Shown here in pieces: positions 12,294 to 30,349 of a DNA stretch of 46,854 bases. The translations under genes and the position numbers were made by a program. This DNA is from a virus, in IMG/VR virus record IMGVR_UViG_3300028883_000067, positions 1-46,854 of that record; one strand, 5' to 3'. Each line of letters starts with the position of its first letter. The first letter of the stretch is position 1. The notes below the pieces were generated by a model that saw only the letters and a program-made list of their open reading frames with translations, was not told the DNA's origin and made no database searches.

Positions 12294-13658
12294 CTAGCAA
12301 GCGGCCGCCGCGTACCGAAGGCCGATTCGATCCGCGCGCTCCCGCAAGAACCCCGCCAGCACGGAATACGCCTTGCGGTTGCGCGCCACGAAATCCACAA
12401 AACCCTGCGCATGAACATCGGCAATCCGTGTTACGCCCGGCGCCGTGAAATCCACCAGCGCCTTGCAGAATTCTATATTGCGTTCAAACCCTTTAGGGGA
12501 AAGTGTTCCCCGGAAAATCCGGACCTCGACCGTTTCCCGGTTTGTCAAATTCAAGGCCCGATATCGTTCTGTCCGGTTGTGATTCATTTTCTTCGCAAGG
12601 CGCGCGCGCGTGTCCGGGCCTCCGTGCGATCCCGCCCAGCGCTCTAGGCGGGATGCGTTGCGCCTGGACACAAGGTGTGTGAACGCGCCCCAACCGTCGA
12701 GAAGATGAATCATTTTGTATATTTGCAAATCAGTTAAGGCGCGTTTCGATATGTGAACGTGCATTCCGCACGTCCGGGAATCGTAAGACGTGAAACCGCG
12801 ATTGCGAAGCTTGAAAACCTCGCGCCACGCGGCCGCGCCGTTCTTCTTATGCCACTCCCAGGAGAACGGATGCGAAACGATTTCGAATCCCGATTCTAGG
12901 CTTGAATCACTCTTGCAGTAGAGAAACCCGTCCGAATCCGTTACCTTTTCGGCCGCGTCGGAATTCGATTCGATCCCGCCCGAGTTTTCGATTTCCAGTT
13001 CAACCCCAAAGAACGGGCCGCGAACCGCGCGAACCGTTCCCAGCGTCCGAAAACACGGTTTCGGCTTATAGCTGTAAGAGTGGATTCCCGCGTTATCGTC
13101 GTGGTCCGCGAAGCACGATTCACAATAACTGCATCCGTCCGATTCGCAAATAAACATAGATTCGCGGTCGAATGCTTCGTCGCAACCTTCACAGTACGTG
13201 AACCGGTCGCGCCAACAATCTTCGCAGTAGGCTTCCCCGTTGCCCGGCCCGCATAGGATATAGTCGTTTGATATCCACTCGCCGCAATCTTCACACTGTG
13301 AAAAACGATCGTCGCGGCAGGATTCGCAATAGTAGCGGTGATTGATTTCTGCCAATTCGTCATTTTCAAAGGTTTCTTCGCAATTATGGCACATACCGAA
13401 TCGGTCCGAAAAGCAATCCTCACAATAGGTGTCACCGTCCGGCCCGCGCGAAAGATCGTCCAGGGAATAGGTCTTGCAGCACATATCACACTCAGCGAAA
13501 CGATCCGAGAAGCAATCCGGACAATAATGTTCATTGTCCGGGCCTTCGAGCGCGGTCCCGGGAATGAGCGCGGCGGCGCACTCGGCGCACACGTCTTGTG
13601 GCATGATTAGCGGCCGCCCGTCCGGGCTTCGCGCCGGACCTTGAACCGTCTGGCGCAT
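12294..13658 (-). CDS. Amidoligase (COOH-NH2 ligase) with five N-terminal zinc modules
   Basis: 454 residues. The C-terminal half (about 214-420) matches the glutamine-synthetase-like Amidoligase_2 family: FFGVELEIE (216-224), KSDSSLESGFEIVSHP (249-264), CGMHVHIS (297-304) and YRALNLTNRETVEVRIFRGT (366-385). Residues 24-185 hold five tandem Cys-x2-Cys ... Tyr-Cys-x2-Cys modules, each ending in a form of DRF, resembling LIM-like or treble-clef repeats that probably bind a protein substrate. Such enzymes form amide or peptide bonds, and published genome surveys describe phage versions beside glutamine amidotransferases, as here. ATG follows GGAAGGGGG. Target molecule unknown. Confidence 0.85.
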   Translation of the reverse strand: MRQTVQGPARSPDGRPLIMPQDVCAECAAALIPGTALEGPDNEHYCPDCFSDRFAECDMCCKTYSLDDLSRGPDGDTYCEDCFSDRFGMCHNCEETFENDELAEINHRYYCESCRDDRFSQCEDCGEWISNDYILCGPGNGEAYCEDCWRDRFTYCEGCDEAFDRESMFICESDGCSYCESCFADHDDNAGIHSYSYKPKPCFRTLGTVRAVRGPFFGVELEIENSGGIESNSDAAEKVTDSDGFLYCKSDSSLESGFEIVSHPFSWEWHKKNGAAAWREVFKLRNRGFTSYDSRTCGMHVHISKRALTDLQIYKMIHLLDGWGAFTHLVSRRNASRLERWAGSHGGPDTRARLAKKMNHNRTERYRALNLTNRETVEVRIFRGTLSPKGFERNIEFCKALVDFTAPGVTRIADVHAQGFVDFVARNRKAYSVLAGFLRERADRIGLRYAAAAC

Positions 13659-15321: not shown

Positions 15322-15338
15322 CCTACGAGCTAAAATTT
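15322..15338 (+). repeat. 17-bp direct repeat, upstream copy
   Basis: CCTACGAGCTAAAATTT occurs here and, identically, at 16228-16244, exactly bracketing the radical-SAM gene with its promoter. The 10-base core GCTAAAATTT occurs a third time at 17040-17049, ahead of another promoter. Confidence 0.8.
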
Positions 15339-15349
15339 CACTTTTCAGC

Positions 15350-15378
15350 TTGACAACCGCTGAATCGCGTGGTATACT
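15350..15378 (+). promoter_or_regulatory. Promoter of the radical-SAM gene
   Basis: TTGACA (15350-15355), 17-base spacer ending GTGG, TATACT (15373-15378), followed 19 bases later by the ATG with GGAGGAGGT between. Near-perfect sigma-70 consensus. Confidence 0.85.
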
Positions 15379-15397
15379 CCTTGTGGAGGAGGTGATC

Positions 15398-16246
15398 ATG
15401 CGACAGTGGCGGAAGGGCGTGGCGGCGTGGAAGATTGGCGACACGCTGTATTTGTCCGTCGTGTTCACATGGGACGTGAAGAAGGCCGTTGCGGCGGCGA
15501 AGAAGCACAAGGGGCCGGTGGTGGTGGGTGGTCCTGCCGCGATGCTGATGCGCGACCGATTCGACGGGATCGCTGAAGTCCGGCAGATCAGCGAGGATTT
15601 CGAGCCGATCCTGATGCACAACCCGCTGGCGTCCTTCTCGACGCGGGGATGCCCGCGAAAATGCGGGTTCTGCGCCGTACCGCGTATTGAGGGCAAATTC
15701 CGAGAAATATGGCCCTTCAGGGCAGCCCCAATGATGTGCGACAACAACTTCCTGGACTCCACCAGGAAGCATCGCCTGCGTGTGATTCGCAAGCTGAAGC
15801 GTTTTCCGCTGGTGGACTTCAATCAGGGGCTAGATGCCCGTAAATGGACGCCCCTGATAGCCAGCGATATGGCGAACCTGAGGCTGCACGCGCGGTTTGC
15901 CTTCGACCACACCAAAGACGAGATCGCGGTTGTGGACGCGATTCGGCTCTGTCGGGCCAAAACGACCAAAAAGGTGAGTGTGTATGTGTTGATTGGCTAC
16001 AAGGACACCCCGGAGGACGCGCTGCACCGGCTCGAAGTCGTGAGGCGCGAGAAGGCGCTGCCAAACCCGATGCGCTACCAGCCGCTCGACGCGGAGAAGA
16101 AGAACTGCTTCGTCCCGAGCAACTGGCCGGAGGCCGAACTGAAGAAGATGATGCGGTACTACTCGCGTCTGCGTTTTGTTTCGAGGATCCCGTACAAGGA
16201 CTTCGACAACAAGGCGACTCGGGCCACCCTACGAGCTAAAATTTGA
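15398..16246 (+). CDS. Radical SAM enzyme
   Basis: 282 residues. TRGCPRKCGFCAVPR carries the CxxxCxxC cluster that holds the 4Fe-4S centre and cleaves S-adenosylmethionine. The preceding part (VVVGGPAAMLM) resembles the end of a B12-binding-like or Rossmann region seen in some radical SAM proteins. Later segments (LVDFNQGLDARKW, VSVYVLIGYKDTPEDAL) fit the barrel strands of MiaB/Elp3-like radical SAM domains. The ATG at 15398 is chosen because a consensus promoter and GGAGGAGGT precede it; a longer frame runs into the promoter. The gene is flanked by a 17-bp direct repeat and followed by a tRNA, suggesting an acquired cassette. Substrate unknown. Confidence 0.8.
   Translation: MRQWRKGVAAWKIGDTLYLSVVFTWDVKKAVAAAKKHKGPVVVGGPAAMLMRDRFDGIAEVRQISEDFEPILMHNPLASFSTRGCPRKCGFCAVPRIEGKFREIWPFRAAPMMCDNNFLDSTRKHRLRVIRKLKRFPLVDFNQGLDARKWTPLIASDMANLRLHARFAFDHTKDEIAVVDAIRLCRAKTTKKVSVYVLIGYKDTPEDALHRLEVVRREKALPNPMRYQPLDAEKKNCFVPSNWPEAELKKMMRYYSRLRFVSRIPYKDFDNKATRATLRAKI
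16228..16244 (+). repeat. 17-bp direct repeat, downstream copy
   Basis: Identical to 15322-15338. It overlaps the last five sense codons of the radical-SAM gene and ends seven bases before the tRNA, as expected if the gene was inserted or duplicated as a unit. Confidence 0.8.
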
Positions 16247-16250
16247 GATT

Positions 16251-16326
16251 GGCCCTGTGGCTCAACTGGCAGAGCGGCTCCTTCGTAACGAGCGGGTTGC
16301 AGGTTCGACTCCTGCCGGGGCCTCCA
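16251..16326 (+). tRNA. tRNA-Thr (anticodon CGT) with encoded CCA
   Basis: A 76-base cloverleaf. The acceptor GGCCCTG pairs with CGGGGCC (one T-G). The D arm GCTC/GAGC has AACTGGCA as its loop. The anticodon arm GCTCC-TTCGTAA-CGAGC carries CGT at 16284-16286, reading ACG (Thr). The T arm is GCAGG-TTCGACT-CCTGC, the discriminator is T, and CCA is encoded. The only defect is a C-C mismatch at the base of the anticodon loop (31/39). Phage tRNAs commonly support late-gene codon use. Confidence 0.85.
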
Positions 16327-16501
16327 AGCCGACCAGAATAAGGCCCATTGCAAGATAGTCGTGACCATTCTGCGGGGTGCCGGAAGTTTGGTCAAGGTTG
16401 CTTGACTTGACGTTGCCGCTCGCAAAGGCAGGTTTCCTTAGTCCTGCCGGCGGATAGCATCAAGTACCGACGTTACGGAACGTCGTCACAGTCTGTGATA
16501 T
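16327..16501 (+). other. Non-coding stretch with strong hairpins and a palindrome
   Basis: No credible gene. Contains the hairpins GTCAAG-GTTG-CTTGAC (16391-16406), GGCAGG ... CCTGCC (16427-16448) and CGACGTT-ACGG-AACGTCG (16468-16485), then the palindrome TCACAGTCTGTGA (16486-16498). None is followed by a T-run, so these are not textbook terminators. They may process the tRNA transcript, form a small RNA, or act as an operator for the promoter at 16553-16581. Confidence 0.5.
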
Positions 16502-16561
16502 CAAGATTTCTCATATTTCCTCTTGACAACCCAAGATTTCTCATATTTCCTCTTGACAACC
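16502..16561 (+). repeat. Perfect 30-bp tandem duplication carrying -35 boxes
   Basis: Two identical 30-base units (16502-16531 and 16532-16561), each starting CAAGATTTCTCATATTT and ending TCTTGACAACC. Each unit contains a TTGACA box, but only the second has a correctly spaced -10 box. Confidence 0.9.
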
Positions 16562-16581
16562 TCCGAATTTGGTTGTATATT
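16553..16581 (+). promoter_or_regulatory. Promoter of the small basic-protein operon
   Basis: TTGACA (16553-16558), 17-base spacer, TATATT (16576-16581), followed by GGAGGAGGAGG. The -35 box lies in the second tandem repeat unit, with the TCACAGTCTGTGA palindrome about 55 bases upstream. Confidence 0.8.
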
Positions 16582-16599
16582 ACTACTGGAGGAGGAGGC

Positions 16600-16758
16600 G
16601 TGATAACGGAAGCGGAGATACGGGCCAAGGGCAGCAGGCCATGCGAAGAAAGGGGAGAAATAACATGGCGCGCAATCGAAGAGGCAAACGGGACGGCACG
16701 GGGCCGCACAAGGACAGCTACCAGCGCCGCAAGTACGGCAAGGGCAAGCGACGCATGA
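16600..16758 (+). CDS. Possible overlapping 52-residue ORF (GTG start)
   Basis: GTG right after GGAGGAGGAGGC, beginning ITEAEIRAKGSRPCEERGEI. Its C-terminal half is low-complexity Thr/Ala/Arg and overlaps the basic protein in another frame. The strong site suggests translation of at least the start; it might be a leader that couples to the next gene. Confidence 0.3.
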   Translation: MITEAEIRAKGSRPCEERGEITWRAIEEANGTARGRTRTATSAASTARASDA

Positions 16759-16784
16759 GGGGCATCAAATGTCCGCGTCGCTGA
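16665..16784 (+). CDS. 39-residue very basic protein
   Basis: MARNRRGKRDGTGPHKDSYQ and then Arg/Lys-rich GKGKRRMRGIKCPRR. The type occurs in many phages, usually unannotated. AAGGGGAG lies eight bases before the ATG. A net charge this high suggests nucleic-acid binding. Confidence 0.65.
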   Translation: MARNRRGKRDGTGPHKDSYQRRKYGKGKRRMRGIKCPRR

Positions 16785-16840
16785 TGCTGACGTTCCTGCG
16801 GCTCATGTTCATGTTCTGCTTGAAGAAGTGCGATGCCTGA
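16769..16840 (+). CDS. Possible 23-residue hydrophobic micro-protein
   Basis: ATG after GAGGGG, encoding SASLMLTFLRLMFMFCLKKC, a short hydrophobic helix with a basic end. Overlaps both neighbours by a few bases. Confidence 0.35.
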   Translation: MSASLMLTFLRLMFMFCLKKCDA

Positions 16841-17018
16841 CGCCTCAGAGAACCCCGACAAGAACGCGCAGAGCCGCCTCATTGAGGACGTGGAAGCGCG
16901 CCTCGACTACTTCCGCAGAGAGTACGACCTGACGTACTGCAAGGCGGTTGGCGCGCTGGAGATCGTCAAGGAGGGCATACTGCTGGAGCTTTTCTCGACC
17001 TGTTCTGAGGATGACTGA
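16833..17018 (+). CDS. Hypothetical 61-residue acidic protein
   Basis: Helical protein (VEARLDYFRREYDLTYCKAV, then LEIVKEGILLELF) overlapping the micro-ORF by eight bases. No family recognised. Confidence 0.55.
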   Translation: MPDASENPDKNAQSRLIEDVEARLDYFRREYDLTYCKAVGALEIVKEGILLELFSTCSEDD

Positions 17019-17072
17019 CGCTGCCTTATTGTGCATCGTGCTAAAATTTTGTGCATTTTTTTGTAAAATAAC

Positions 17073-17101
17073 TTGACAAACACCACAAAATGTGGTATGT
17101 T
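17073..17101 (+). promoter_or_regulatory. Promoter of the glycan cassette, with palindromic spacer
   Basis: TTGACA (17073-17078), 17-base spacer, TATGTT (17096-17101). The spacer includes the perfect dyad CCACAAAATGTGG (17083-17095), placed where a bound repressor would block RNA polymerase. GCTAAAATTT and an AT-rich tract precede it. Confidence 0.75.
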
Positions 17102-17107
17102 TCCAAT

Positions 17108-17327
17108 AGATGCGGGCGTTGGCTGTTGACGGATGGCCGGCCTCGCTTAAAGGGCCGATGAGGCCCTGGCTATAGCCCGGCAGCGTCAGCCGGCTTGGGG
17201 TGTGGGCCTACAAGGCCCGGCGACAGGAGCTTGGTTTGTGGGTCCGACCCACAAACGGCACCCAACGCCTCCGTGTGACGCGGGACTGCGCAGCCCTGCG
17301 GAGGCAGATGCTCAGGAGACCGCCTTC
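17108..17327 (+). ncRNA. Structured leader RNA (riboswitch-like)
   Basis: About 220 untranslated bases between the promoter and the GTG of the fusion gene. A long-range stem GGCGTTGG (17114-17121) with CCAACGCC (17262-17269) encloses local hairpins: GGCCTC...GAGGCC, CCGGC-AGCGTCA-GCCGG, GGGCC-TACAA-GGCCC and TTTGTGGGT-CCG-ACCCACAAA. The 3' strand of the closing stem shares bases with a competing stem GCCTCCG...CGGAGGC just before the start, an arrangement seen in riboswitch expression platforms. CAGGAGACC before the start resembles a B12 box, but the other cobalamin-riboswitch core blocks are missing. Class unknown. Confidence 0.55.
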
Positions 17328-19163
17328 GTGGCGTTTAGCGATTGTGTTCTGATGCGCAATGCGGCCGGCCGAGAGGTTCTTGCGGCCGACGAAGATGTGG
17401 AGTCGCTGAAGGATTTGGGCTTTGTAGCCTGTGGGGGCCGCGGCGCCGATATCCCAAGAACCATCACCCCTCCGCGTGCCACAAAACCGGCCCCGGCCCC
17501 CGCCATTTCCTGCAAGATTCCCCAGACGCTCGTTGAGATCGACCCGTCAAGCGCCTGCACTCGTCGGTGCCCTTTTTGTGACCCCGGAATACCGAAAGGC
17601 CGTCGGGCGAAGCGTCGCTTTTTGAGTCTCCGGGTCCACAACAAGATGATTAACAAGTTGGCGGCGGCTGGGTTCGATCAGAGAGAGAGTCAGGTATGTT
17701 ACTGTGGTCATGGGGAGCCGTTTCTACATCCGAACATCATTGAAATGATGCGTTACACCCGAAGAGTTCTCCCGAACGCGAGACTGACGGCGTTTACCAA
17801 TGGTGATCCGTTTCGGGCGGAGCGCGGGGTGGAGATGCTGTGCGCTCTGGAGGCGCTGGACATTGACGTGCTGGTCTGGAGCGTTTACGGCGACCGCGGC
17901 AGGCCGGACAGCACAACGCGCGAGTTTCCAAAGCAAGTGCGGGCCTCCAGCCTGGACCCCGGGCGTGTGCATGTTAACGATTACGTCGGCGGCCTGGAGG
18001 GGGCGTCCAGCCGGTCTGGCACGGTCTGTAGGCCGCGCAACGCTTTCCGGTCAGACCCGTGCGAGTTTCCGTCCAAGAAGCTCTTTCTAGCTGCCGAGGG
18101 CTATTGGCTTTTGTGTTGTGAGGATTATGGACAGCGAGTTCGTTTTAGCGGCAGGCTGGGGCCGGTGGAGCTAAACAAAGACCGCAAGTTTGTTTCTGCC
18201 AAGTCCCTTGCGTCCGAAGGGCGCCGCAAGGAGGGGTTGATTTGCCGTGTTTGCGACCGCTGCGGCAGTGCCCCAGATGGATACAGGCACGTTCCCCTTT
18301 TGGTTGGCAGTCGCTTCTGGCCGCCCCCGCCCCCCGCGATTCCGAAGGTTGGCGGGCGCCGGTTGGTGGTTTTGGCGACCAACTGGCGCTGGCAGGACCA
18401 CGCTCTTGCCGCCATCGACGCAATCGAAGCTGCGTCTACGATGCGCGGCCGGCTGATGCTGTTGTGGAACGACGATGAACACCCGAAGTGTCCGCCCGCA
18501 TTACGCAGAAAAAACGTCATTGTCAAGGAGTTTCCGGGGTCGCTTGGCTGGTGCGGCATCAGTCGGGGTATCAGCTATGCTTTGCGGTATGCCGTAAAGA
18601 AGGGTTATGGATGGGTTGTAAAGATCGACACCGACACGGCCATTCTGCGGAAGGGGTGGGACGCTTGCTTGTGCGCGGAGTGCGCACCAAACGAGCAGAT
18701 TGGGACGCTGATGGATGCGGCGCTTGTCGGACAGATTCCAAACAATTCCGACGGGCTGGATGACGGCTTGTTTATGCACTCTTTGGCGAAGTTTTGCAGA
18801 TGGAGTCGTGGTTTCGTTCGCCAGTGGAGACGCCGATGGGACCACATCCAAGGTGGCTGCTACGTGATTGGGATAGAGGCCCTGCGAAGAATTGAACGTG
18901 TTGTGGGTTTGGGTGCGCAGGATCAAGAAGCTTTGCAGGACGGTGAACGTGTTGGCGAGGACGTGTACCTGGACACAAAGTGTAAGGTTGCCGGCGTCCC
19001 ACAACGGGACTCCATGTTGTGCAGGATTTGGTTTCGGATGCACGGAACGGGGGAGCTTTCCATAGAACAGGTACGACACCAGCGGGATAACGTCGGGGCA
19101 GTGGTGTTGCACCCAATCAAGAACCTCGATACGTTGCGCGTTTTAGCAGAGGAGATTGTTTGA
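17328..19163 (+). CDS. Radical SAM/SPASM protein fused to a GT-A glycosyltransferase
   Basis: 611 residues from a GTG with AGGAG nine bases upstream; a longer frame from GTG 17202 would run through the structured leader. Residues 65-200 form a radical SAM domain: CTRRCPFC (77-84) binds the 4Fe-4S cluster and CGHGEPFLHPN (126-136) is the SAM-contact strand. Cys-rich 234-312 (CRPRNAF, LLCCEDYG, CRVCDRCG) looks like a SPASM auxiliary-cluster region. Residues about 345-600 resemble a nucleotide-sugar glycosyltransferase, with KIDTDTA (432-438) as the DxD metal site. A joint peptide- or sugar-modifying role is inferred. First gene of a five-gene overlapping operon. Confidence 0.75.
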   Translation: MAFSDCVLMRNAAGREVLAADEDVESLKDLGFVACGGRGADIPRTITPPRATKPAPAPAISCKIPQTLVEIDPSSACTRRCPFCDPGIPKGRRAKRRFLSLRVHNKMINKLAAAGFDQRESQVCYCGHGEPFLHPNIIEMMRYTRRVLPNARLTAFTNGDPFRAERGVEMLCALEALDIDVLVWSVYGDRGRPDSTTREFPKQVRASSLDPGRVHVNDYVGGLEGASSRSGTVCRPRNAFRSDPCEFPSKKLFLAAEGYWLLCCEDYGQRVRFSGRLGPVELNKDRKFVSAKSLASEGRRKEGLICRVCDRCGSAPDGYRHVPLLVGSRFWPPPPPAIPKVGGRRLVVLATNWRWQDHALAAIDAIEAASTMRGRLMLLWNDDEHPKCPPALRRKNVIVKEFPGSLGWCGISRGISYALRYAVKKGYGWVVKIDTDTAILRKGWDACLCAECAPNEQIGTLMDAALVGQIPNNSDGLDDGLFMHSLAKFCRWSRGFVRQWRRRWDHIQGGCYVIGIEALRRIERVVGLGAQDQEALQDGERVGEDVYLDTKCKVAGVPQRDSMLCRIWFRMHGTGELSIEQVRHQRDNVGAVVLHPIKNLDTLRVLAEEIV

Positions 19164-19765
19164 TGTACGCCGAAACGGACCAAGAAGAGCAGTTCATTCT
19201 CGATAATCTTCCGGGACCGACCGGGTGGTTCATTGACGTGGGTGCCTTCGACGGAGTGACGAAGAGCGCGACCAGACGCCTTTGGGAGCTTGGGTGGTCA
19301 GGTGTCCTGGTGGAGCCGTCCCCGGAGGCGTTCATCAAGCTTTCCCAGAACTATCCGGATCGCAAGCGCGTGTCCCTGCTGAACGCGCCGGTCCTACCAG
19401 AGCGTCGGATCGTGCAGTTTTATGATGCGGGTGGGCATGGGGTGGATTCGGTAGACATGCGACACGTTGCAGCCTTTCGGAAATCTGGCGCGCAGTTCAG
19501 GAAGCACTACGCGGTTAGCGTCGCTCCGGCAGAGATTCTGGAAGCGTGGGGACCGCAGCGATGGCGTTTCCTGAACATAGATGCCGAGGGGGTTTCGACG
19601 GATATTCTGAGGGCGTTTCTTCGGGAGGGTGTTCCAACCCTGGACGTGGTTTGCGTGGAGACAGAGAACCGCAAGGGCGAGATTGTGGACGCGATGAACG
19701 TTGCCGGCTTTACGCTTGGCCTGGAGACGCAGTACAACCTCCTGTTCAGTCGAGGAAACCAGTGA
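19163..19765 (+). CDS. FkbM-family methyltransferase
   Basis: 200 residues. FIDVGAFDGVTKSATRRLW is the S-adenosylmethionine-binding loop, GVLVEPSPEAF the acidic ribose-binding strand, and FLNIDAEGVSTDIL the conserved FkbM motif. These enzymes O-methylate sugars of natural products and surface glycans. ATG overlaps the previous stop (TGATG), site GAGGAG. Confidence 0.85.
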   Translation: MYAETDQEEQFILDNLPGPTGWFIDVGAFDGVTKSATRRLWELGWSGVLVEPSPEAFIKLSQNYPDRKRVSLLNAPVLPERRIVQFYDAGGHGVDSVDMRHVAAFRKSGAQFRKHYAVSVAPAEILEAWGPQRWRFLNIDAEGVSTDILRAFLREGVPTLDVVCVETENRKGEIVDAMNVAGFTLGLETQYNLLFSRGNQ

Positions 19766-20454
19766 AGCGCATCAAGCAATACGGCCTTCAGCGCAGCGGA
19801 ACAAACTACACCAAGTTTCTGCTGGACAGAAACTATGATGTGGATGTTCTGACGGAGCGCGGGGGCCAAAAGCACGGGCACTATGCGTTGGATGCGTCTG
19901 GGTTGGAGGTGGACGCGGTTGTTGTGACAGTCAAGAATCCGTTTGCTTGGTTGGTGTCGATGTTTAACTTCCTGAACTCGCTTGCCAGCGAAAGATACAG
20001 GCATCCGGAGGATTGGGACGACTTTCTTTGCGGCGAATTTCTTTCTCCGCAACCGTCGAGCGTGCTGTTTTTCGACAATCCCGCCGAGTGTTGGTCCAAG
20101 ATGAATCGGCATTGGTTGTCCATTTACGACCCAAGCGTCAGTGTTGTTGTAATCACAAGATACGAGGACTTGCTGGCGAGCCCCGAGGAAGAAACGAACA
20201 GAATCGCCACAATGGTTGGCTTGGAACGTAGGGCCGCACCATTCGAGGTGCCGACGATGCAGTTGGCGCACTATCTTCGCAAAAACGAAACGCAAGACTG
20301 GCCCGCGTTCCAGACGAAAGACAAGTTTGCCAGAAAGACGTACTATCTGAACGAAGAGTACGCTGCTCACTTTTCGGACACGCATCTTCGGTTTGTGGGA
20401 GGCTATCTCAATTCTGCGCTGCTGGGCGCTCTTGGGTATCGGGAGGCCCTGTGA
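19762..20454 (+). CDS. Sulfotransferase-family protein
   Basis: 230 residues, GTG start overlapping the previous stop. YGLQRSGTNYTKFLL (7-21) is the N-terminal phosphosulfate-binding loop of PAPS-dependent sulfotransferases. VVVTVKNPFAWLVSMFNF corresponds to the second strand-helix, and VVVITRYEDLLASPEEE to the 'RYEDL' region preceding the 3'-phosphate site. Predicted to place sulfate on a carbohydrate or protein. Base composition is low for this genome (20101-20160 is 26/60 G+C), consistent with recent transfer. Confidence 0.8.
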   Translation: MKRIKQYGLQRSGTNYTKFLLDRNYDVDVLTERGGQKHGHYALDASGLEVDAVVVTVKNPFAWLVSMFNFLNSLASERYRHPEDWDDFLCGEFLSPQPSSVLFFDNPAECWSKMNRHWLSIYDPSVSVVVITRYEDLLASPEEETNRIATMVGLERRAAPFEVPTMQLAHYLRKNETQDWPAFQTKDKFARKTYYLNEEYAAHFSDTHLRFVGGYLNSALLGALGYREAL

Positions 20455-21074
20455 ACATTGCTGTTGTGGGGAATGGTGCGAGCGCGAGAAACTATGCGCC
20501 CGAGATTGATGGGGCGGATTTTGTGGTGCGTATGACAGAAGGCCACATTGCGCATCGCTTCTGTTCGGGGTCGCGCGTTGACGCATATGCTTGGTACGGA
20601 CATGAGCTTCACGCGATGATGCCCCTTCGGTTTATGGCAGAGGCGCGCGAGTTCTGGCACACCGTGCCAAGCGAGCGTCCGCACGGCAGGCCAGAGGTTG
20701 CGCGCGACAGAATCAAGACCGTTCTTCGGCACTTGGGAGGGCGGACGCTGCGCGTGATTTCGCAGGCTGAGTATGACGCCCTGACGGCAGAGTTGGCCGA
20801 GCAATACATGGACGCCAAAAGCCCGTCTACTGGACTCGTGACACTTCATATGGCGCTTGCGCGCGCTCCAGATCGAGTTGATCTATATGGTTACGACGCG
20901 ACTACGCGAGGCCAGCCAGGGTGGGGCAACGAGGCTATCGGGTGGCCGGATAAAGACCCTCATCCGTTTCTTGCCGAGAAGCGTATGATACGCGATCTCG
21001 TGCAAACGGGGAAGTGGCTCAGAAAACCCGCCCCACCCGTTGCTTGGCACGCGATGCCGGAGGTGCCAGAATGA
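20451..21074 (+). CDS. Sialyltransferase-like glycosyltransferase (GT29-like)
   Basis: 207 residues, GTG start overlapping the previous stop as GTGA. NIAVVGNGASARNYAPEIDG with DFVVRMTEG resembles the large sialyl motif region of GT29 enzymes. SPSTGLVTLHMALARAPDRV resembles the small sialyl motif, and the His/Glu residues near HPFLAEKRMI resemble the terminal motif. It is followed by a CMP-sialate-synthetase-like gene, which supports use of a CMP-activated nonulosonate. Some relatives are annotated only as 'glycosyltransferase family 29'. Confidence 0.75.
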   Translation: MNIAVVGNGASARNYAPEIDGADFVVRMTEGHIAHRFCSGSRVDAYAWYGHELHAMMPLRFMAEAREFWHTVPSERPHGRPEVARDRIKTVLRHLGGRTLRVISQAEYDALTAELAEQYMDAKSPSTGLVTLHMALARAPDRVDLYGYDATTRGQPGWGNEAIGWPDKDPHPFLAEKRMIRDLVQTGKWLRKPAPPVAWHAMPEVPE

Positions 21075-21796
21075 ACGCTGCTATTATTACTGCGCGGGGT
21101 GGCAAGCAGGCGCTCACCGACAAGCACCTGCGGGAGGTTTGCGGGGCTCCGCTTGTCGCGTGGCCCATTCGGGCCGCGAAAAACGCAGAAAGAATTGACT
21201 CCGTGTACGTGTCCACCAACTGCCCTAGCATTGCCAGGGTGGCGCGGGGCGAAGGGGCGTTGGTTATTGACCGCCCGCCAGAGTTGGCGCTTCCAACCAG
21301 CGATCACGGTTTGGCAATTCGCCACGCGATTGAGGCCGTTGGGTCGTCTCGTTCGGACTTCGAGAACGTGGTTGTTCTTCTCGGAAACACCGTCATGGTG
21401 GACGCGGACCTGATAGACAAGGCGCTGGAGATGCTGGAAGAAAGCTCGTCCTTGCTGTTGAGCGGCGTAATGTCCGTTTGGCAGGCCCAAGACGATCACC
21501 CTATGCGCGCGCTGCACGTTAAGGACGGATACTTGAAGTCCTATGGCGACGCAAGCGAAGAGGGGATTTCAACGAACCGCCAGTCGTATCCGGACGTTTA
21601 TTTTTATGACCAGGGTGTGTGGGCCTTTCGAAAGCGCTATGCGTTCAGCAGGGAGGGTCCGCGTCCGTGGTGGTGGATGGGGCCGAAGGTGAGGCCCATC
21701 GTGCGCGAATGGATCGCCGGTCGTGACGTACACTCGGTGTTTGGGTTGGACGTTTCGGAGTGGTGGTTGGCCCGCCAGCAGCGAGGGGCGCAATGA
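21071..21796 (+). CDS. CMP-sialic acid synthetase-like cytidylyltransferase
   Basis: 241 residues. The N-terminus AAIITARGGKQALTDKHLRE is the CTP-binding loop of acylneuraminate/KDO cytidylyltransferases (usual form ARGGSK...KN). VVVLLGNTVMVDADLIDKAL corresponds to the strand and helix around the catalytic metal site. The C-terminus FGLDVSEWWLARQ resembles the family's end. It should activate a sialic acid or related nonulosonic acid as the CMP sugar. No sialate synthase (NeuB) is encoded, so the free sugar would come from host or environment. Confidence 0.78.
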   Translation: MNAAIITARGGKQALTDKHLREVCGAPLVAWPIRAAKNAERIDSVYVSTNCPSIARVARGEGALVIDRPPELALPTSDHGLAIRHAIEAVGSSRSDFENVVVLLGNTVMVDADLIDKALEMLEESSSLLLSGVMSVWQAQDDHPMRALHVKDGYLKSYGDASEEGISTNRQSYPDVYFYDQGVWAFRKRYAFSREGPRPWWWMGPKVRPIVREWIAGRDVHSVFGLDVSEWWLARQQRGAQ

Positions 21797-22335
21797 GCAA
21801 GCGCAAAACACCAACGGCCGGCGTTCCGGAACACCTGAAACACCTGAAGCCGCTGCACAATAAGGAGCAGTGGACGCCCGCCGAGGTCGAGCGCGTCGAG
21901 AAGGACGTTGAGCGCGGGAAGGAAATTGCCGAGAGCGCGATTGGCCGGGCGTTGACGGCACCGTCGCCGGCCAAGGCCACGGAAATCATTGAGAAGTGGG
22001 GCCGCCGCACAGACATCCGGGGACAGTTCTCAAAGGCGTATTTGCACCGGGAGTTCGCAAGGCAGGGCCTCACGCTGGAGGAGCTTGTCGCGCAGCACCT
22101 CGGAATTATCCGGGGCGGCAAGAACATTCGCCCGGCGGACCAGTTGAACGCGATCAAGCTCGCCTATCAGGCCGCGGGCCTGCTGGGCGGGGACGGCGGG
22201 ACCAGCGTGAAGGGCGCGCTTGACGTGAGCAGCCTTGCGGAGAACGAGCTTGTGAAGATCATCCAGACCGTCGAGGTGCGCAAGCAGCCCACCATCGACG
22301 CGGAAGCCAAGGTTGTCGAAGAGGACACAGAGTGA
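21793..22335 (+). CDS. terS: Terminase small subunit
   Basis: 180 residues, ATGA overlap with the preceding gene and immediately upstream of the large terminase. Charged helical protein (EVERVEKDVERGKEIAESAI) with a central HLGIIRGGKNIRPADQLNAI segment typical of phage small terminases that recognise the packaging site. Assignment rests on position and composition. Confidence 0.7.
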   Translation: MSKRKTPTAGVPEHLKHLKPLHNKEQWTPAEVERVEKDVERGKEIAESAIGRALTAPSPAKATEIIEKWGRRTDIRGQFSKAYLHREFARQGLTLEELVAQHLGIIRGGKNIRPADQLNAIKLAYQAAGLLGGDGGTSVKGALDVSSLAENELVKIIQTVEVRKQPTIDAEAKVVEEDTE

Positions 22336-24617
22336 CCGACCGCGACACACTTGAACTGAAAGCCGCGGCCGCCGTCGAGCTTGGGCGTCGGCGCGCGAAG
22401 GCAGACCTCTACTGGTTTGCCCGCGAAATCCTCGGCTATCAGGACTTGAATCCCAAACTGCACGGCGAGGAGCTTGTGCCCTTCATCACCCGCAAGGGCC
22501 GCCAGCGCCTCGTCCTGCTGCCGCGCGGGCATCTCAAGTCCACCCTGGCGACGATTGCGAACTGCCTGTGGCGTATCATCCAGAACCCAAACATCCGTAT
22601 CCTGCTGGCGAACGCCGTGGAGTCAAACGCGGAGAGCTTCCTGCGGGAAATCAAGGCCCACATCACCGGGAACGAGTCCTTCCAGAGGTTCTTCCCCGAG
22701 TTCACGCTGGAGAATGACGGGTGGACGCGCTGGAAGAGCCAGACCATTACAGCCAAGCGCAGCAAGCGCATGAAGGAGCCGACCATCAGCATCGTCGGCA
22801 TGGGTGGCGCGCTTGCGTCCCAGCACTACGACCTCATCATCATGGACGACCTTGTAGAGCGGTCGCACGTCGAGACCGAGGGCCAGCTTGAGAAGGCGAA
22901 GCTGTGGTACAAGGACGCGCTGGACCTGCTGGAGCCGGACGGGGAGCTTATCTACATCGGTACGCGCTGGCACGACGTGGACCTCGCAGGCTGGCTCATC
23001 GACGAGCATTCGGACAGCTTCAAGTTCGAGGACGGTTCCTCTGCCGTTATGGTGCGGCAGGCCATCGAGGATGACAAGTGCATCTTTCCGGAGAAGTTCT
23101 CTAAGGAAATTCTCGCTGAACTGAAGAGGCTGAAGGGGCCGTGGGAATATAGCTGCAACCCGGCAGAGGCTCCCGTTTGGATGGCAAACGGCACGTTCAA
23201 GCCGATTTCGGAAGTCCGGCCGGGCGACAAGGTAATCGGCTTCGAGCGCGGCTGCGGCCGGAAGGGCGGCGCCCACAACAGGCTGGTCGTGTCGGAAGTG
23301 CTCGCTACCGGCAGCAAACTGGCTCCCGTCCAGACGCTTGTGTTCGAGTCGGGCCGCTGGTTGCGTTGCACGCCAGACCACCGCTGGTACACTGGTCGGA
23401 ACGACGGAAGCCATAAGCTCTATAAACCCGCAAGGGTGGGTAGTGTGTTGTTCCGCGCGGTGCATCCCGCCGACATCAGCATGCTACCTTTGGTGGTCCA
23501 GAAGTGGTGGCGGTACCTAGCTGGCATCATCGACGGGGAAGGCTCTTGCAAGTTTAGCAACGTTGTTATCCACCAGTCTGAAACAGATAATGGGCCAGTC
23601 TGCCGTGCCATCGACCTTGCGTTGAAGATGGTGGGCGCGAAGTGCAGCACCAAAACCAAGCCCAAGCCAGAGCGAATTATGCGCTACTGGATCGTGAACG
23701 GTGCTCGGCAATTTCGCTCAGACCTCATCAATTACGGCGAGCCAGCCAAACGCGAACAAATCCTACGCGGAATCATTGGGCGCAGCAAGGCGTTCCCAGA
23801 GAAGGAGCGCGTGGCAGAGATTTTACCGCCAGGGCCGGCGGAGCGTGTCTACTCCATGCAGACCACCACTGGCAACTACGTGGTGTGGGGAATCGGCTCC
23901 AAGAACTGTCAGTACATGAACGATCCATTGCCGGAAAGCGAGGTTTGTTTCAAGAAGGGCTGGTGGGTGTACTATGCCGAGGGGGACTTCCCGCGCGATG
24001 ACATGAACCAACTGCTTCCGCGTCGCCGCTATATCACCATTGACCCGGCGTGGACGACGAACCGCACGAGCGACTTCACGGGCATCATTGTGAACTGTGT
24101 AACGCCCGACGACCATTGGTATTTGGTCGATGCGTTCCGCCTGAAAATTACCAGTGACCAGTTGCTCGACCTGTTGTTTGAGTTGTACGGAACGTACAAG
24201 CCGCACCTGATCGGCCTTGAAATCCACGCGATGCAGCGTATTTTCCGCGACATGCTGCCCAAGGAGATTCAGCGGCGCGGTATACCTCTTCCAATTTACG
24301 ACCTGAAGCCCTCTGGTGGCGCGTTTGGGTTGGCGTCCAAGGGCGAAAGGATCATCGGGTTGCAGCCGCGAATGTCGAACGGCTTCATTCACTGGCCGAC
24401 AAAGGCGAACGATTCGCGTTCTCTAGCGTCGGAGGGACTGGAAATTCTCCGAAATCAGATGCTACGGTTTCGGTATCGCCACACGTCTAAGAAGATGGTG
24501 GACAACTTGCTGGATGCACTCGCGTACCAAATTGATATTGCGCAAGCCCCCATCGTAACATCGGAGGAGGAACTGCCAGAGCGCGCATACAACCAGTTCA
24601 CGGGGGCCGTTGCGTAG
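22332..24617 (+). CDS. terL: Terminase large subunit interrupted by an in-frame intein
   Basis: 761 residues before splicing, about 510 after. The ATPase part shows Walker A LLPRGHLKST (62-71) and Walker B LIIMDD (168-173). The nuclease part begins at YITIDPAW (567-574, Asp571) and ends with the acidic NLLDALAYQ. The conserved WEYS|CQYMNDP junction between the two domains is split by a 251-residue intein (275-525). Without splicing the packaging motor should not fold. GTG start overlaps the small-subunit stop. Confidence 0.9.
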   Translation: MTDRDTLELKAAAAVELGRRRAKADLYWFAREILGYQDLNPKLHGEELVPFITRKGRQRLVLLPRGHLKSTLATIANCLWRIIQNPNIRILLANAVESNAESFLREIKAHITGNESFQRFFPEFTLENDGWTRWKSQTITAKRSKRMKEPTISIVGMGGALASQHYDLIIMDDLVERSHVETEGQLEKAKLWYKDALDLLEPDGELIYIGTRWHDVDLAGWLIDEHSDSFKFEDGSSAVMVRQAIEDDKCIFPEKFSKEILAELKRLKGPWEYSCNPAEAPVWMANGTFKPISEVRPGDKVIGFERGCGRKGGAHNRLVVSEVLATGSKLAPVQTLVFESGRWLRCTPDHRWYTGRNDGSHKLYKPARVGSVLFRAVHPADISMLPLVVQKWWRYLAGIIDGEGSCKFSNVVIHQSETDNGPVCRAIDLALKMVGAKCSTKTKPKPERIMRYWIVNGARQFRSDLINYGEPAKREQILRGIIGRSKAFPEKERVAEILPPGPAERVYSMQTTTGNYVVWGIGSKNCQYMNDPLPESEVCFKKGWWVYYAEGDFPRDDMNQLLPRRRYITIDPAWTTNRTSDFTGIIVNCVTPDDHWYLVDAFRLKITSDQLLDLLFELYGTYKPHLIGLEIHAMQRIFRDMLPKEIQRRGIPLPIYDLKPSGGAFGLASKGERIIGLQPRMSNGFIHWPTKANDSRSLASEGLEILRNQMLRFRYRHTSKKMVDNLLDALAYQIDIAQAPIVTSEEELPERAYNQFTGAVA
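23154..23906 (+). mobile_element. Intein (Hint domain with LAGLIDADG-type endonuclease) in terL
   Basis: Runs from Cys275 to Asn525 of the precursor. Block A is CNPAEAPVWMANG, followed by PISEVRPGDKVIG. Block B is WLRCTPDHRWYT, with the T-x-x-H pair. The C-terminal blocks are VYSMQTTTGNYVVWG and GIGSKN, with Cys526 as the +1 nucleophile. The penultimate residue is Lys rather than the usual His. YLAGIIDGEGS (395-405) is a single LAGLIDADG-like motif, so a homing endonuclease is present but perhaps reduced. The flanks rejoin as WEYS-CQYMND. Confidence 0.9.
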
Positions 24618-27917: not shown

Positions 27918-29093
27918 ATGGTTACTGTGAATACTGGTGTCCGGGGAACCGCGGACATCACCTCTAGTCGTCTGCGCGTTGATATGGCAGACAAGGTTCA
28001 CCTGCTGGACCCGAGTGCGCATCCCTACACACGGATGCTTTCGGCGTCCGCAGAGGAAGGCCGCGCTCCGGGCCTTCAGAAGAAGGCTTCGATTGAGGCC
28101 GACTTCCACTGGCACGAGGACGAGTTGATTCCGTTCTGGAGCCAGGTGAACAACTCGGGCGGCTACACGGCCGGCGCCACGAGTATCGTGGTTGACAACG
28201 GTTCGTATTTCCGCGCGAACGATATCATCCAGTTCACGGCTTCGACGGGCGTGAACCAGGAAATCGCTCGCGTCACGGCCGTTTCCACCAACACCCTGAC
28301 GGTTTCGCGCGGTTACGGCGAAACCTCGGCGGGCGCGCTGTCGGACAACGACTACGTGCTCCGCGTCGGGAACGCGAACGAGGAAGGGGCAACGATTGGA
28401 ACCTTGGCGAGCACGCAGAGCGCCAAGAAGTCCAACTACTGCCAGATTTTCCGCACCCCGTTCGGCGTGACGAACACCGAGAAGAACTCCGCGACCTACG
28501 ACGGTTCGGACCTTGATTTCCAGCGCAAGAAGAAGCTGATGCTTCACATGCGCGAGATCGAGTTGGCGGGTTTTTTCAGCGAACTGAAGCTGGACACGAG
28601 CGGGACCAAGCCCCTCCGCCTTACGCGCGGTCTGAACAAGCGCATTTCGACCAACCGCACGGCGGTCGCGGCCGACCTCACGAACACCGAGTTCGAGAAC
28701 TTCCTGCGAACCGGGATGCAGTACGGCTCGCTCTCGAAGATTCTCTTTGCCTCTGGCAAGCTCGTGCAGGTCATCAACAGCTACTCCATCGGCAAGCTCC
28801 AGACGAAGGTGGCAGGCAGGCTCTACGGGGTCAAGGTGTATCAGTACGTTTCGGCCTTCGGAACGATCCTGATTTGCTACCACAAGGCGTTTACCAACGA
28901 CTACCAAGGGTACGGCTTCCTTGTGGACATCGAGGAGTGCAAGTACCGCTACCTCCAGAACCGCGACACCGCGCTTCTGAAGGGTCGTGAGGCGAACGAC
29001 GAGGACTCGTCCAAGGAGGAGTTCCTGACCGAGTGCGGTTTCGAGGTGCACAACGAGAAGTACCACTCCGAGATCGACACGGTAACGACGTAG
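27918..29093 (+). CDS. Major capsid protein (SU10/DUF5309-like)
   Basis: 391 residues. Segments such as RTPFGVTNTEKNSATYDGSD and FQRKKKLMLHMREIELAGFF match the SU10-type capsid family (HK97 fold), and the C-terminal half carries the core strands. An inserted beta domain sits at about residues 70-150 (GYTAGATSIVVDNGSYF ... VTAVSTNTLTVSRGYGETSA), resembling repeats in the downstream tail proteins. Hairpins occur just before and after the gene. It forms the icosahedral shell. Confidence 0.85.
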   Translation: MVTVNTGVRGTADITSSRLRVDMADKVHLLDPSAHPYTRMLSASAEEGRAPGLQKKASIEADFHWHEDELIPFWSQVNNSGGYTAGATSIVVDNGSYFRANDIIQFTASTGVNQEIARVTAVSTNTLTVSRGYGETSAGALSDNDYVLRVGNANEEGATIGTLASTQSAKKSNYCQIFRTPFGVTNTEKNSATYDGSDLDFQRKKKLMLHMREIELAGFFSELKLDTSGTKPLRLTRGLNKRISTNRTAVAADLTNTEFENFLRTGMQYGSLSKILFASGKLVQVINSYSIGKLQTKVAGRLYGVKVYQYVSAFGTILICYHKAFTNDYQGYGFLVDIEECKYRYLQNRDTALLKGREANDEDSSKEEFLTECGFEVHNEKYHSEIDTVTT

Positions 29094-29157: not shown

Positions 29158-29559
29158 ATGAAGTTCAAGGCACCGGCCGCCAACCAGAGAGTTATCATTC
29201 GCTCAGAGCGGCCGATCTTCGACACGACCGGGGTGAAGGTTGCAATGCAGGATGGAATCAACGTCCAGTTCGACAGGGGCGAGTACGATTCCGCCTGCGA
29301 GTCCAACCCCGAGCACCGCAAGGTCATCGAAGATTTTCTGCTGAACGATCCGAGAATGCGAGGCGTGGTTTTCCCCGTCAAGGCCGAAAAGGTCAAGATT
29401 GACGGGCAGGAGATGGAGGTTCTTGGCGCCCCCGAGATTCCCGAGGAGGCTCCGGTTGAGCCGCCCAAGCGCAAGCGCGGGCGCCCCAAGGGCAGCAAGA
29501 ACAAGAAAAAGAAGCGCAAGCCGAAGGCGCGCAAGGTGGCGGAGGCACCGGATGCCTAA
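29158..29559 (+). CDS. Small virion-module protein with AT-hook tail
   Basis: 133 residues. The N-terminal ~80 residues are a mixed alpha/beta domain of unknown type; a Pro/Glu linker leads to PKRKRGRPKGSKNKKKKRK, an AT-hook (core RGRP) in a poly-Lys tail. AT-hooks bind the DNA minor groove, so a head-interior or packaged-DNA role is possible. GAGGAGG precedes the ATG. Confidence 0.65.
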   Translation: MKFKAPAANQRVIIRSERPIFDTTGVKVAMQDGINVQFDRGEYDSACESNPEHRKVIEDFLLNDPRMRGVVFPVKAEKVKIDGQEMEVLGAPEIPEEAPVEPPKRKRGRPKGSKNKKKKRKPKARKVAEAPDA

Positions 29560-30349
29560 AGGCAGCCAGCCCAAACTGAAGGTTTTTCTCGGGATGCCGT
29601 TCTATGGCGGCATCAACGGGCACACCGTTGGGTCGCTTGTGATGACGAGCGCGCTCGGCTTCGTTCGGGACGTGTGGATCAAGCCGGACCTCGAACAGTG
29701 TACGCTGGTACATCGGGGTCGCAACTGCATTATCAAGCGCTTCGTGCAGAGCGACTTCGACTACCTGCTGTTCGTGGACTCCGACATGGTGTGGCCGGCA
29801 GAGGTGCTGTGGCACCTGCTGGCTCACAAGCTGGACATCGTGGGTGGAATGTACTTCAGGCGCGTTCGCCCGCATCACCCCGTGTTTGCGAAGCACCTGA
29901 ACCTCACCAAGGACGATGCCTTCGAGGAGTCGGCTCCCCCGGGTCCGGGGTTGCATGAGGTGGCCGGGGTCGGCATGGGGTTCACGCTGTTGTCGCGTCG
30001 GGTTTGCGAGAAGATGTGCGAGAAGTACCCGATGCCGTTTCAGTACATGGAGGTTCGTGGTGGCGAAGGCGAGCTTTCGGAGGATTACACGTTTTGCCAC
30101 CGTGCCGCAACCGAGTTCGGCTTCAAGGTGCATCTCGACGCTGACCTCGGCGCGCACCTGCAACACATCGGTACGGCTGCGTTTGACGCGGAGGACTGGA
30201 TGGCGTACAAGCGCCACGAGTCCCAGCGCCTCATCAGCGAGGAGGCGCAAAAGCTTGTACGGGTGGCGACGCCAGAGGACGTGAAGAAATGGAGCGACCA
30301 CGTGGGCGGCGGCGGCAACGGCAAGAACCGCCTGCGCATCGTTCCTTAG
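29552..30349 (+). CDS. GT-A fold glycosyltransferase in the virion module
   Basis: 265 residues. KVFLGMPFYGGINGHT (10-25) is the nucleotide-sugar strand and loop; DYLLFVDSDMVWPAEVLWHL (70-89) contains the DxD metal-binding motif (Asp76-Ser-Asp78); HKLDIVGGMYFRR (92-104) follows, as in GT2-like phage glycosyltransferases. ATG with GGAGG, overlapping the AT-hook gene. Position among head and adaptor genes suggests it may glycosylate a virion protein. Acceptor and sugar unknown. Confidence 0.75.
   Translation: MPKGSQPKLKVFLGMPFYGGINGHTVGSLVMTSALGFVRDVWIKPDLEQCTLVHRGRNCIIKRFVQSDFDYLLFVDSDMVWPAEVLWHLLAHKLDIVGGMYFRRVRPHHPVFAKHLNLTKDDAFEESAPPGPGLHEVAGVGMGFTLLSRRVCEKMCEKYPMPFQYMEVRGGEGELSEDYTFCHRAATEFGFKVHLDADLGAHLQHIGTAAFDAEDWMAYKRHESQRLISEEAQKLVRVATPEDVKKWSDHVGGGGNGKNRLRIVP

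Follow-up and report, generated by a model that had tools for sequence, protein, structure and literature searches.

The virus record IMGVR_UViG_3300028883_000067 carries a run of five overlapping genes for predicted glycan-modifying enzymes that is part of its packaging/late operon and whose core recurs beside the head genes of other phages. The window analyzed here is the entire IMG/VR record of 46,854 bases. The linked genes, B-C-D-E-F (17328-21796), encode a radical-SAM protein fused to a DxD glycosyltransferase (GT), an FkbM-type methyltransferase (MT), a sulfotransferase-type protein, a GT29 sialyltransferase-type enzyme, and a cytidylyltransferase of the NeuA/PseF/KdsB superfamily (Table 1); these enzyme names rest on profiles. 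A preliminary description of this DNA had proposed a six-enzyme cassette that builds or remodels a sialylated, sulfated, and methylated glycan on the particle or on the host surface. Its observation is confirmed with corrections and its interpretation is partly supported: that other phages carry this gene set argues for glycan building or remodelling, and placement next to terminase, portal, and head genes favors the particle over the host. The reading we favor, to which we give about an even chance, is that the cassette decorates virion proteins in the cytoplasm with an acidic sugar activated by cytidine monophosphate (CMP), with sulfation and methylation to follow.

The minus strand left of ~14.2 kb holds early genes (helicase loader, amidoligase). 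Genes for packaging, heads, and tails are on the plus strand, among them those for an intein-bearing terminase, portal, major head protein, and tail fibre-like proteins, and the cassette opens this late block. All six proteins considered in the preliminary description (A–F) are open frames with zero internal stops. Neighboring genes overlap without interruption from B to TerL, by 1 nt at the B/C junction and by 4 nt at each of the C/D, D/E, E/F, F/TerS, and TerS/TerL junctions. Because the chain overlaps straight into TerS-TerL, the cassette is part of the packaging/late operon, and the unbroken overlaps together with the one good promoter-like site indicate that cassette and terminase genes very probably share a single transcript with coupled translation. 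The operon and promoter described earlier stand, but the chain reaches further than had been recognized. An ACCACA/TGTGGT inverted repeat can be read between the -35 and -10 hexamers of the promoter-like site. The leader described with them is only modestly structured, and the idea of a structured RNA leader was dropped, since no Rfam family matched and the fold score was low. No family match for TerS was obtained in Pfam or PHROG searches. Low G+C content had been taken as a sign of transfer, which did not hold up: the cassette stands at 0.582 versus 0.587 to its left, the 20th percentile among windows of the same length. At the DNA level, the 17.0-24.9 kb region matched none of 50,697 INPHARED phage records.

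Relatives of the cassette were found by pattern-seeded scans of sequence collections, and their counts are lower bounds. Those of B and E in IMG/VR were reached by profile scans only; IMG/VR scans with the portal protein and with single-sequence B or E gave no confirmed relative, and tblastn returned one weak partial match each for B and F and zero matches for E. The B+E+F set recurs in viral contigs L007 and L008, where it immediately follows the gene for the major head protein, and a related cassette is present in L064. The order in L007 is terminase, portal, major head protein (P22-coat-like by eye), and then B, E, F, and C, overlapping; in L008 it is terminase, portal, major head protein (phrog_247), B, F, and E, with B carrying an additional N-terminal domain that appears sialyltransferase-like by eye and is not named by Pfam. 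L064 has terminase, a SPASM/radical-SAM protein, GT, sulfotransferase, GT29, an RraA-like protein, NeuB (151 bits), a CMP-synthetase (56 bits), portal, and head protein, while L067 runs from terminase through a radical-SAM/SPASM protein and GT29 to the contig end, and L003 has head protein, GT, a sialyltransferase-like protein, an F homologue, MT/GT, and neck. Searched by tblastn, the structural proteins of the window gave no match in L007, L008, or L064, and the terminase/head families differ as well (phrog_38/1328 in the window, phrog_2/247 in L008, phrog_9/10 in L064); the L003 head protein belongs to the same family, phrog_1328, as that of the window. Given structural genes with no detectable relationship and the recurrent placement, the cassette appears to be mobile and tied to head genes, passing from one phage lineage to another yet staying among them. 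Another phage group (L070, 3523-11034) has three GT29-like genes in a sugar-gene cluster.

The profile searches assigned the cassette proteins to the expected families and not to unrelated ones. B matches PF04055 at 31.2 bits over a cut-off of 29.5 and carries a CxxxCxxC radical-SAM motif (CTRRCPFC, 17556-17579), auxiliary cysteines (18105-18125 and 18243-18263), and a DxD motif (IDTDTA, 18624-18641). Full-length homologues are 53% (L008) and 41% (L007) identical, with the motif cysteines and DxD invariant in both. When a three-sequence B profile was run against the PDB, the sole matching molecule was BtrN (2-deoxy-scyllo-inosamine dehydrogenase; 3e-15, over the radical-SAM half), which shares the radical-SAM core and auxiliary-cluster cysteines with B but differs from it in that B is fused to a DxD glycosyltransferase. 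The fusion was not found among 695 bacterial genomes of two phyla, where weak matches were to the radical-SAM half only. Radical-SAM/SPASM-like proteins often act on peptides, and B has weak NCBIfam matches to peptide and metalloenzyme maturases, as would be expected if it modified a peptide or protein side chain that was glycosylated afterwards, in the manner of ribosomally synthesized and post-translationally modified peptides. We consider this very unlikely, given that a cyclitol dehydrogenase is the best and only PDB match of B, that no precursor peptide was seen, and that its partners are CMP-sugar and sialyltransferase-type enzymes.

The remaining modifying enzymes likewise match known families. 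C scores 45.1 bits against TIGR01444 (cut-off 37.7) and has the SAM-binding DVGAxDG; its homologue in L007, 45% identical, adjoins F. D is a predicted sulfotransferase-family protein (PF00685, Sulfotransfer_1, 27.2 bits over 22) with motifs of the type that binds 3'-phosphoadenosine-5'-phosphosulfate, namely a 5'-PSB-like QRSGTNY from 19789 and a 3'-PB-like RYEDL within 20146-20193, and no PDB relative was found for it by sequence. The two radical-SAM proteins, the FkbM methyltransferase, the sulfotransferase, and the sialyl-motif protein named in the preliminary description were all recovered, and most of the catalytic motifs are present.

E is a GT29 enzyme by profile, motifs, and predicted fold, and is predicted to use a CMP-sugar. 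It matches PF00777 at 37.8 bits over a cut-off of 23, as do three homologues (28.6-32.4 bits), and it has sialylmotifs L (20460-20534), S (20823-20900), and VS (HPFLAE, 20961-20978). Its alignment with ST3Gal-I extends across motifs L and S, and the HxxxxE of motif VS reads HRQLSE, HPWRAE, and HDFPAE in relatives; by analogy, the His of this motif would be the catalytic one. Between motifs S and VS, in the motif III area, the alignment is poor and model confidence low. Significant PDB matches of the E profile are all animal GT29 sialyltransferases. The predicted model (mean predicted local distance difference test, pLDDT, 74.6; predicted template-modelling score, pTM, 0.79) bears out the expected fold, with the top 36 of 36 PDB matches in Foldseek being sialyltransferases (GT29, GT42, and other bacterial types; template-modelling score by query, 0.47-0.64). 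Profile, motifs L/S/VS, and predicted fold are shared with ST3Gal-I, ST6GalNAc-II, ST8Sia-III, and the GT29 members of poxviruses, herpesviruses, and giant viruses, from which E differs in being short (207 aa), soluble, and phage-borne. A GT29 annotation already exists for one uncultured Caudovirales protein.

Some phage glycosyltransferases are known to hypermodify DNA (Pyle et al. 2024, cited in PMC12619734), and the transferases could in principle glycosylate a hydroxymethylated base of the phage DNA. Of the explanations considered this is the least probable: GT29 enzymes and sulfotransferases act on glycans, the cassette lies in the late packaging region and not beside replication genes, and thymidylate-synthase/hydroxymethylase was not found in the record. 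A TET/JBP search of the record also gave no match, but the controls were likewise without a match, so this absence is uninformative.

Table 1. Features of the window, with the basis for each assignment.
Feature	Position	Strand	Basis or remark
A, radical-SAM gene	15398-16246		phrog_9298 radical SAM, E=3e-30; below Pfam cut-off
Promoter-like site	17073..17101	+	TTGACA-17-TATGTT, extended -10, 10/12 match
Cassette 5' leader	17108..17327	+	modestly structured, fold z=-2.1
B, radical-SAM fused to DxD glycosyltransferase	17328..19163	+	PF04055, BtrN profile match, homologues
C, FkbM-type methyltransferase	19163..19765	+	TIGR01444; ATG start 19163
D, sulfotransferase-type protein	19762..20454	+	PF00685; GTG start 19762
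E, GT29 sialyltransferase-type enzyme	20451..21074	+	PF00777, sialylmotifs, predicted fold
F, NeuA/PseF/KdsB-superfamily cytidylyltransferase (CMP-ulosonate synthetase-like)	21071..21796	+	PF02348; ATG start 21071
Probable TerS	21793..22335	+	position and ATGA overlap with F
TerL with intein (23154-23906)	22332..24617	+	phrog_38, 8e-79; GTGA overlap with TerS
Major head protein	27918-29093	+	GT-A-like gene just downstream
GT-A-like glycosyltransferase (VDSDM)	29399..30349	+	phrog_12406 2e-14, phrog_34859 6e-10

The identity of the sugar turns on F, which the preliminary description had called CMP-sialate-synthetase-like. Family membership is clear (PF02348, CTP_transf_3, 51.9 bits over 22.6), and the nearest PDB families are NeuA (6ifd, E=9e-30) and then KdsB (4e-6). 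Against a sialic acid assignment, F falls below every equivalog cut-off (PseF, 70.4 of 205.7 bits; KdsB, lower) and belongs to a subfamily with motifs of its own (GNTVMV, AQDDHPxRA, RQSYP, WxWMG, GRDxH). In 16 of 17 sequences of this subfamily D219-x-H221 replaces the DxD metal pair, in a region where the alignment to NeuA is weak; R9 and K18 of the nucleotide-binding R...K-N signature are kept, and N19 is replaced by His in the window alone. We also counted the neighbors of bacterial F relatives at the 30 loci with enough flank. A 2-hydroxyacid dehydrogenase and an NAD-epimerase-family protein were each found at 26, an HAD phosphatase at 23, and a 6-phosphogluconolactonase at 8, whereas NeuB was present within 4 kb at 0 of 30. 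Some of these loci have NeuB at a greater distance (L013, L026, L028, L055), and they also carry a second NeuA-like gene of the ordinary kind. F therefore probably activates a 2-ulosonic acid other than sialic acid, judging from these neighborhoods, and sialic acid was rejected as the certain sugar, so that the specific claim of sialylation falls. NeuB is, however, present in L064, L004, and L005.

The bacterial loci (L009-L057) form a conserved operon of cytidylyltransferase, 2-hydroxyacid dehydrogenase, epimerase, and HAD phosphatase, sometimes with 6-phosphogluconolactonase and a GT4-like gene, in Bacteroidota, Chloroflexota, Acidobacteriota, and others. It looks like an uncharacterized CMP-sugar-acid pathway. 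In phage contig L006 (4982-15675), an F homologue lies with an AroB-related cyclizing phospholyase (TIGR04425-like), an SDR protein, a Gfo/Idh-like protein, and 2-hydroxyacid dehydrogenase, carbamoyltransferase-like, and sulfotransferase-like genes, perhaps for a cyclitol-type sugar. A more far-reaching proposal, which we regard as unlikely, is that the F subfamily makes an undescribed CMP-sugar acid and that phages recruited it with GT29 and the radical-SAM-GT as a mobile module coating virions with a sulfated, methylated ulosonate. Under this proposal, the bacterial operon in its version with 6-phosphogluconolactonase would fit conversion of glucose-6-phosphate to CMP-2-ketogluconate or a similar hex-2-ulosonate.

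In the reading we favor, the sugar would be made and attached in the cytoplasm of the infected cell during particle assembly. F would combine CTP with a host-supplied 2-ulosonic acid (sialic-acid-like or a related keto-acid sugar), and E would transfer the resulting CMP-sugar. The glycosyltransferase half of B would add an underlying or further sugar to build up the remaining chain, and the BtrN-like half of the protein could oxidize or otherwise alter a sugar; D would then sulfate and C O-methylate the product. The acceptor would most likely belong to the virion, with the major head protein and proteins that assemble with it as the probable candidates, and the purpose may be particle shielding or adsorption control. 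The GT-A-like gene just behind the major head gene is a probable accessory to this function. Co-transcription with packaging genes, the recurrent position behind the head protein, and the solubility of the enzymes (none of the five has a likely membrane segment; maximum 19-residue hydropathy, 1.52) lead us to favor decoration of the particle. Glycosyltransferases are encoded together with structural genes in the window and its relatives, which suggests that phages with such sets give their particles a coat of an unusual acidic sugar.

The main rival is that the acidic sugar, sulfate, and methyl groups are added in the cytoplasm to precursors of host lipopolysaccharide (LPS) or capsule, masking the receptor against superinfection or re-adsorption. 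Bacterial surface glycans are commonly decorated by sialyltransferases, FkbM enzymes, and sulfotransferases. Cytoplasmic sialyltransferases can act on LPS too, each phage has several GT genes, and the bacterial relatives of F lie in surface-polysaccharide-type clusters with GT4-like enzymes. We nevertheless judge it possible but somewhat improbable: terminase coupling and repeated placement in the head module imply late expression, when masking a receptor gains little, and neither membrane segments nor, in the family searches of the window, any flippase, polymerase, or lipid-carrier enzyme were seen.

Several points weigh against virion decoration. The acceptor named above is only a candidate; head-gene neighborhoods may simply tolerate insertion; of the phages that have B, the window alone has D; and the AlphaFold model of B (pLDDT 45) is too poor for use. 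The record has no biosynthetic gene for the sugar acid and, as described earlier, no NeuB was found in it, though it may be incomplete. Window F itself has His where 16 of 17 aligned sequences have Asn (N19) and Gly at D225, and the enzyme may be altered or weak as judged from these two changes. These changes at family-conserved residues, with third-position G+C of 0.62-0.71 in the cassette versus 0.77-0.83 in head genes, could instead point to a recently acquired glycan island that is decaying cargo without present function. That the five reading frames remain intact in tight overlap with the essential terminase genes, and that B, E, F, and C are kept with their motifs in divergent relatives, makes this quite unlikely.

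Gene A was rejected as a cassette member, which reduces the proposed six-gene unit to five linked genes: A has a promoter-like site to itself (15350-15378), lies apart from B with a tRNA-Thr gene (16251-16326) and ~1 kb between them, and has no counterpart in L007, L008, or L064. An exact 17-bp direct repeat, CCTACGAGCTAAAATTT, lies on either side of it (15322-15338 and 16228-16244), and A may be an inserted unit flanked by these repeats. The second copy falls immediately ahead of tRNA-Thr, and at 17033, upstream of the cassette promoter, there is a 76% copy. The promoter regions 15338-15392 and 16541-16595 resemble each other at 75% across 55 nt that take in the -35, the -10, and the ribosome-binding site, and 16502-16561 holds a 30-bp repeat in tandem. 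Elsewhere, an Amidoligase_2 family protein (12294-13658, minus strand; PF12224, 37 bits over 22) neighbors a protein of unknown function. The TerL intein (251 aa, between WEYS and CQYMNDP) has a Hint-like start and a LAGLIDADG-like YLAGIIDGEG; by tblastn its best relatives are parts of portal proteins from mycobacteriophages, among them a record annotated as an intein-containing portal protein.

T4-like cyanophages with LPS gene clusters also carry phage-borne glycan genes, but these are different phages with different gene content and genome position. In mycobacteriophages, phage enzymes glycosylate capsid and tail-tube proteins (PMC11256854, PMC12619734, PMC11600133, citing Freeman et al. 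2023). The likeness to the window lies in phage-encoded glycosyltransferases whose targets are capsid and tail-tube proteins (Che8, Rita, cluster O; Freeman et al. 2023, cited in PMC11256854, PMC11600133) and, for cluster O, in an O-methyltransferase gene. The available passages of these papers describe no CMP-sugar synthetase, GT29, sulfotransferase, or radical-SAM-GT fusion there, and window-type cassettes differ further in being coupled to terminase or lying among head genes. F, for its part, is set apart from NeuA, PseF, and KdsB by its subfamily motifs, DxH for DxD, and NeuB-free bacterial neighbors. A literature search, mostly without subscription papers and preprints, did not turn up any paper describing a phage cassette for sialylation or nonulosonates.

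Virion glycosylation is known experimentally mainly from mycobacteriophages. If the favored reading is true, uncultured phages would have a separate mobile module in which CMP-sugar chemistry and enzymes of the sialyltransferase type, familiar chiefly from animals, are joined by radical-SAM chemistry, sulfation, and methylation, keeping pace with head assembly. Small soluble GT29 enzymes would join the toolbox, an uncharacterized bacterial CMP-sugar pathway would be indicated, and the purpose of glycans on phage particles would become testable in new systems.

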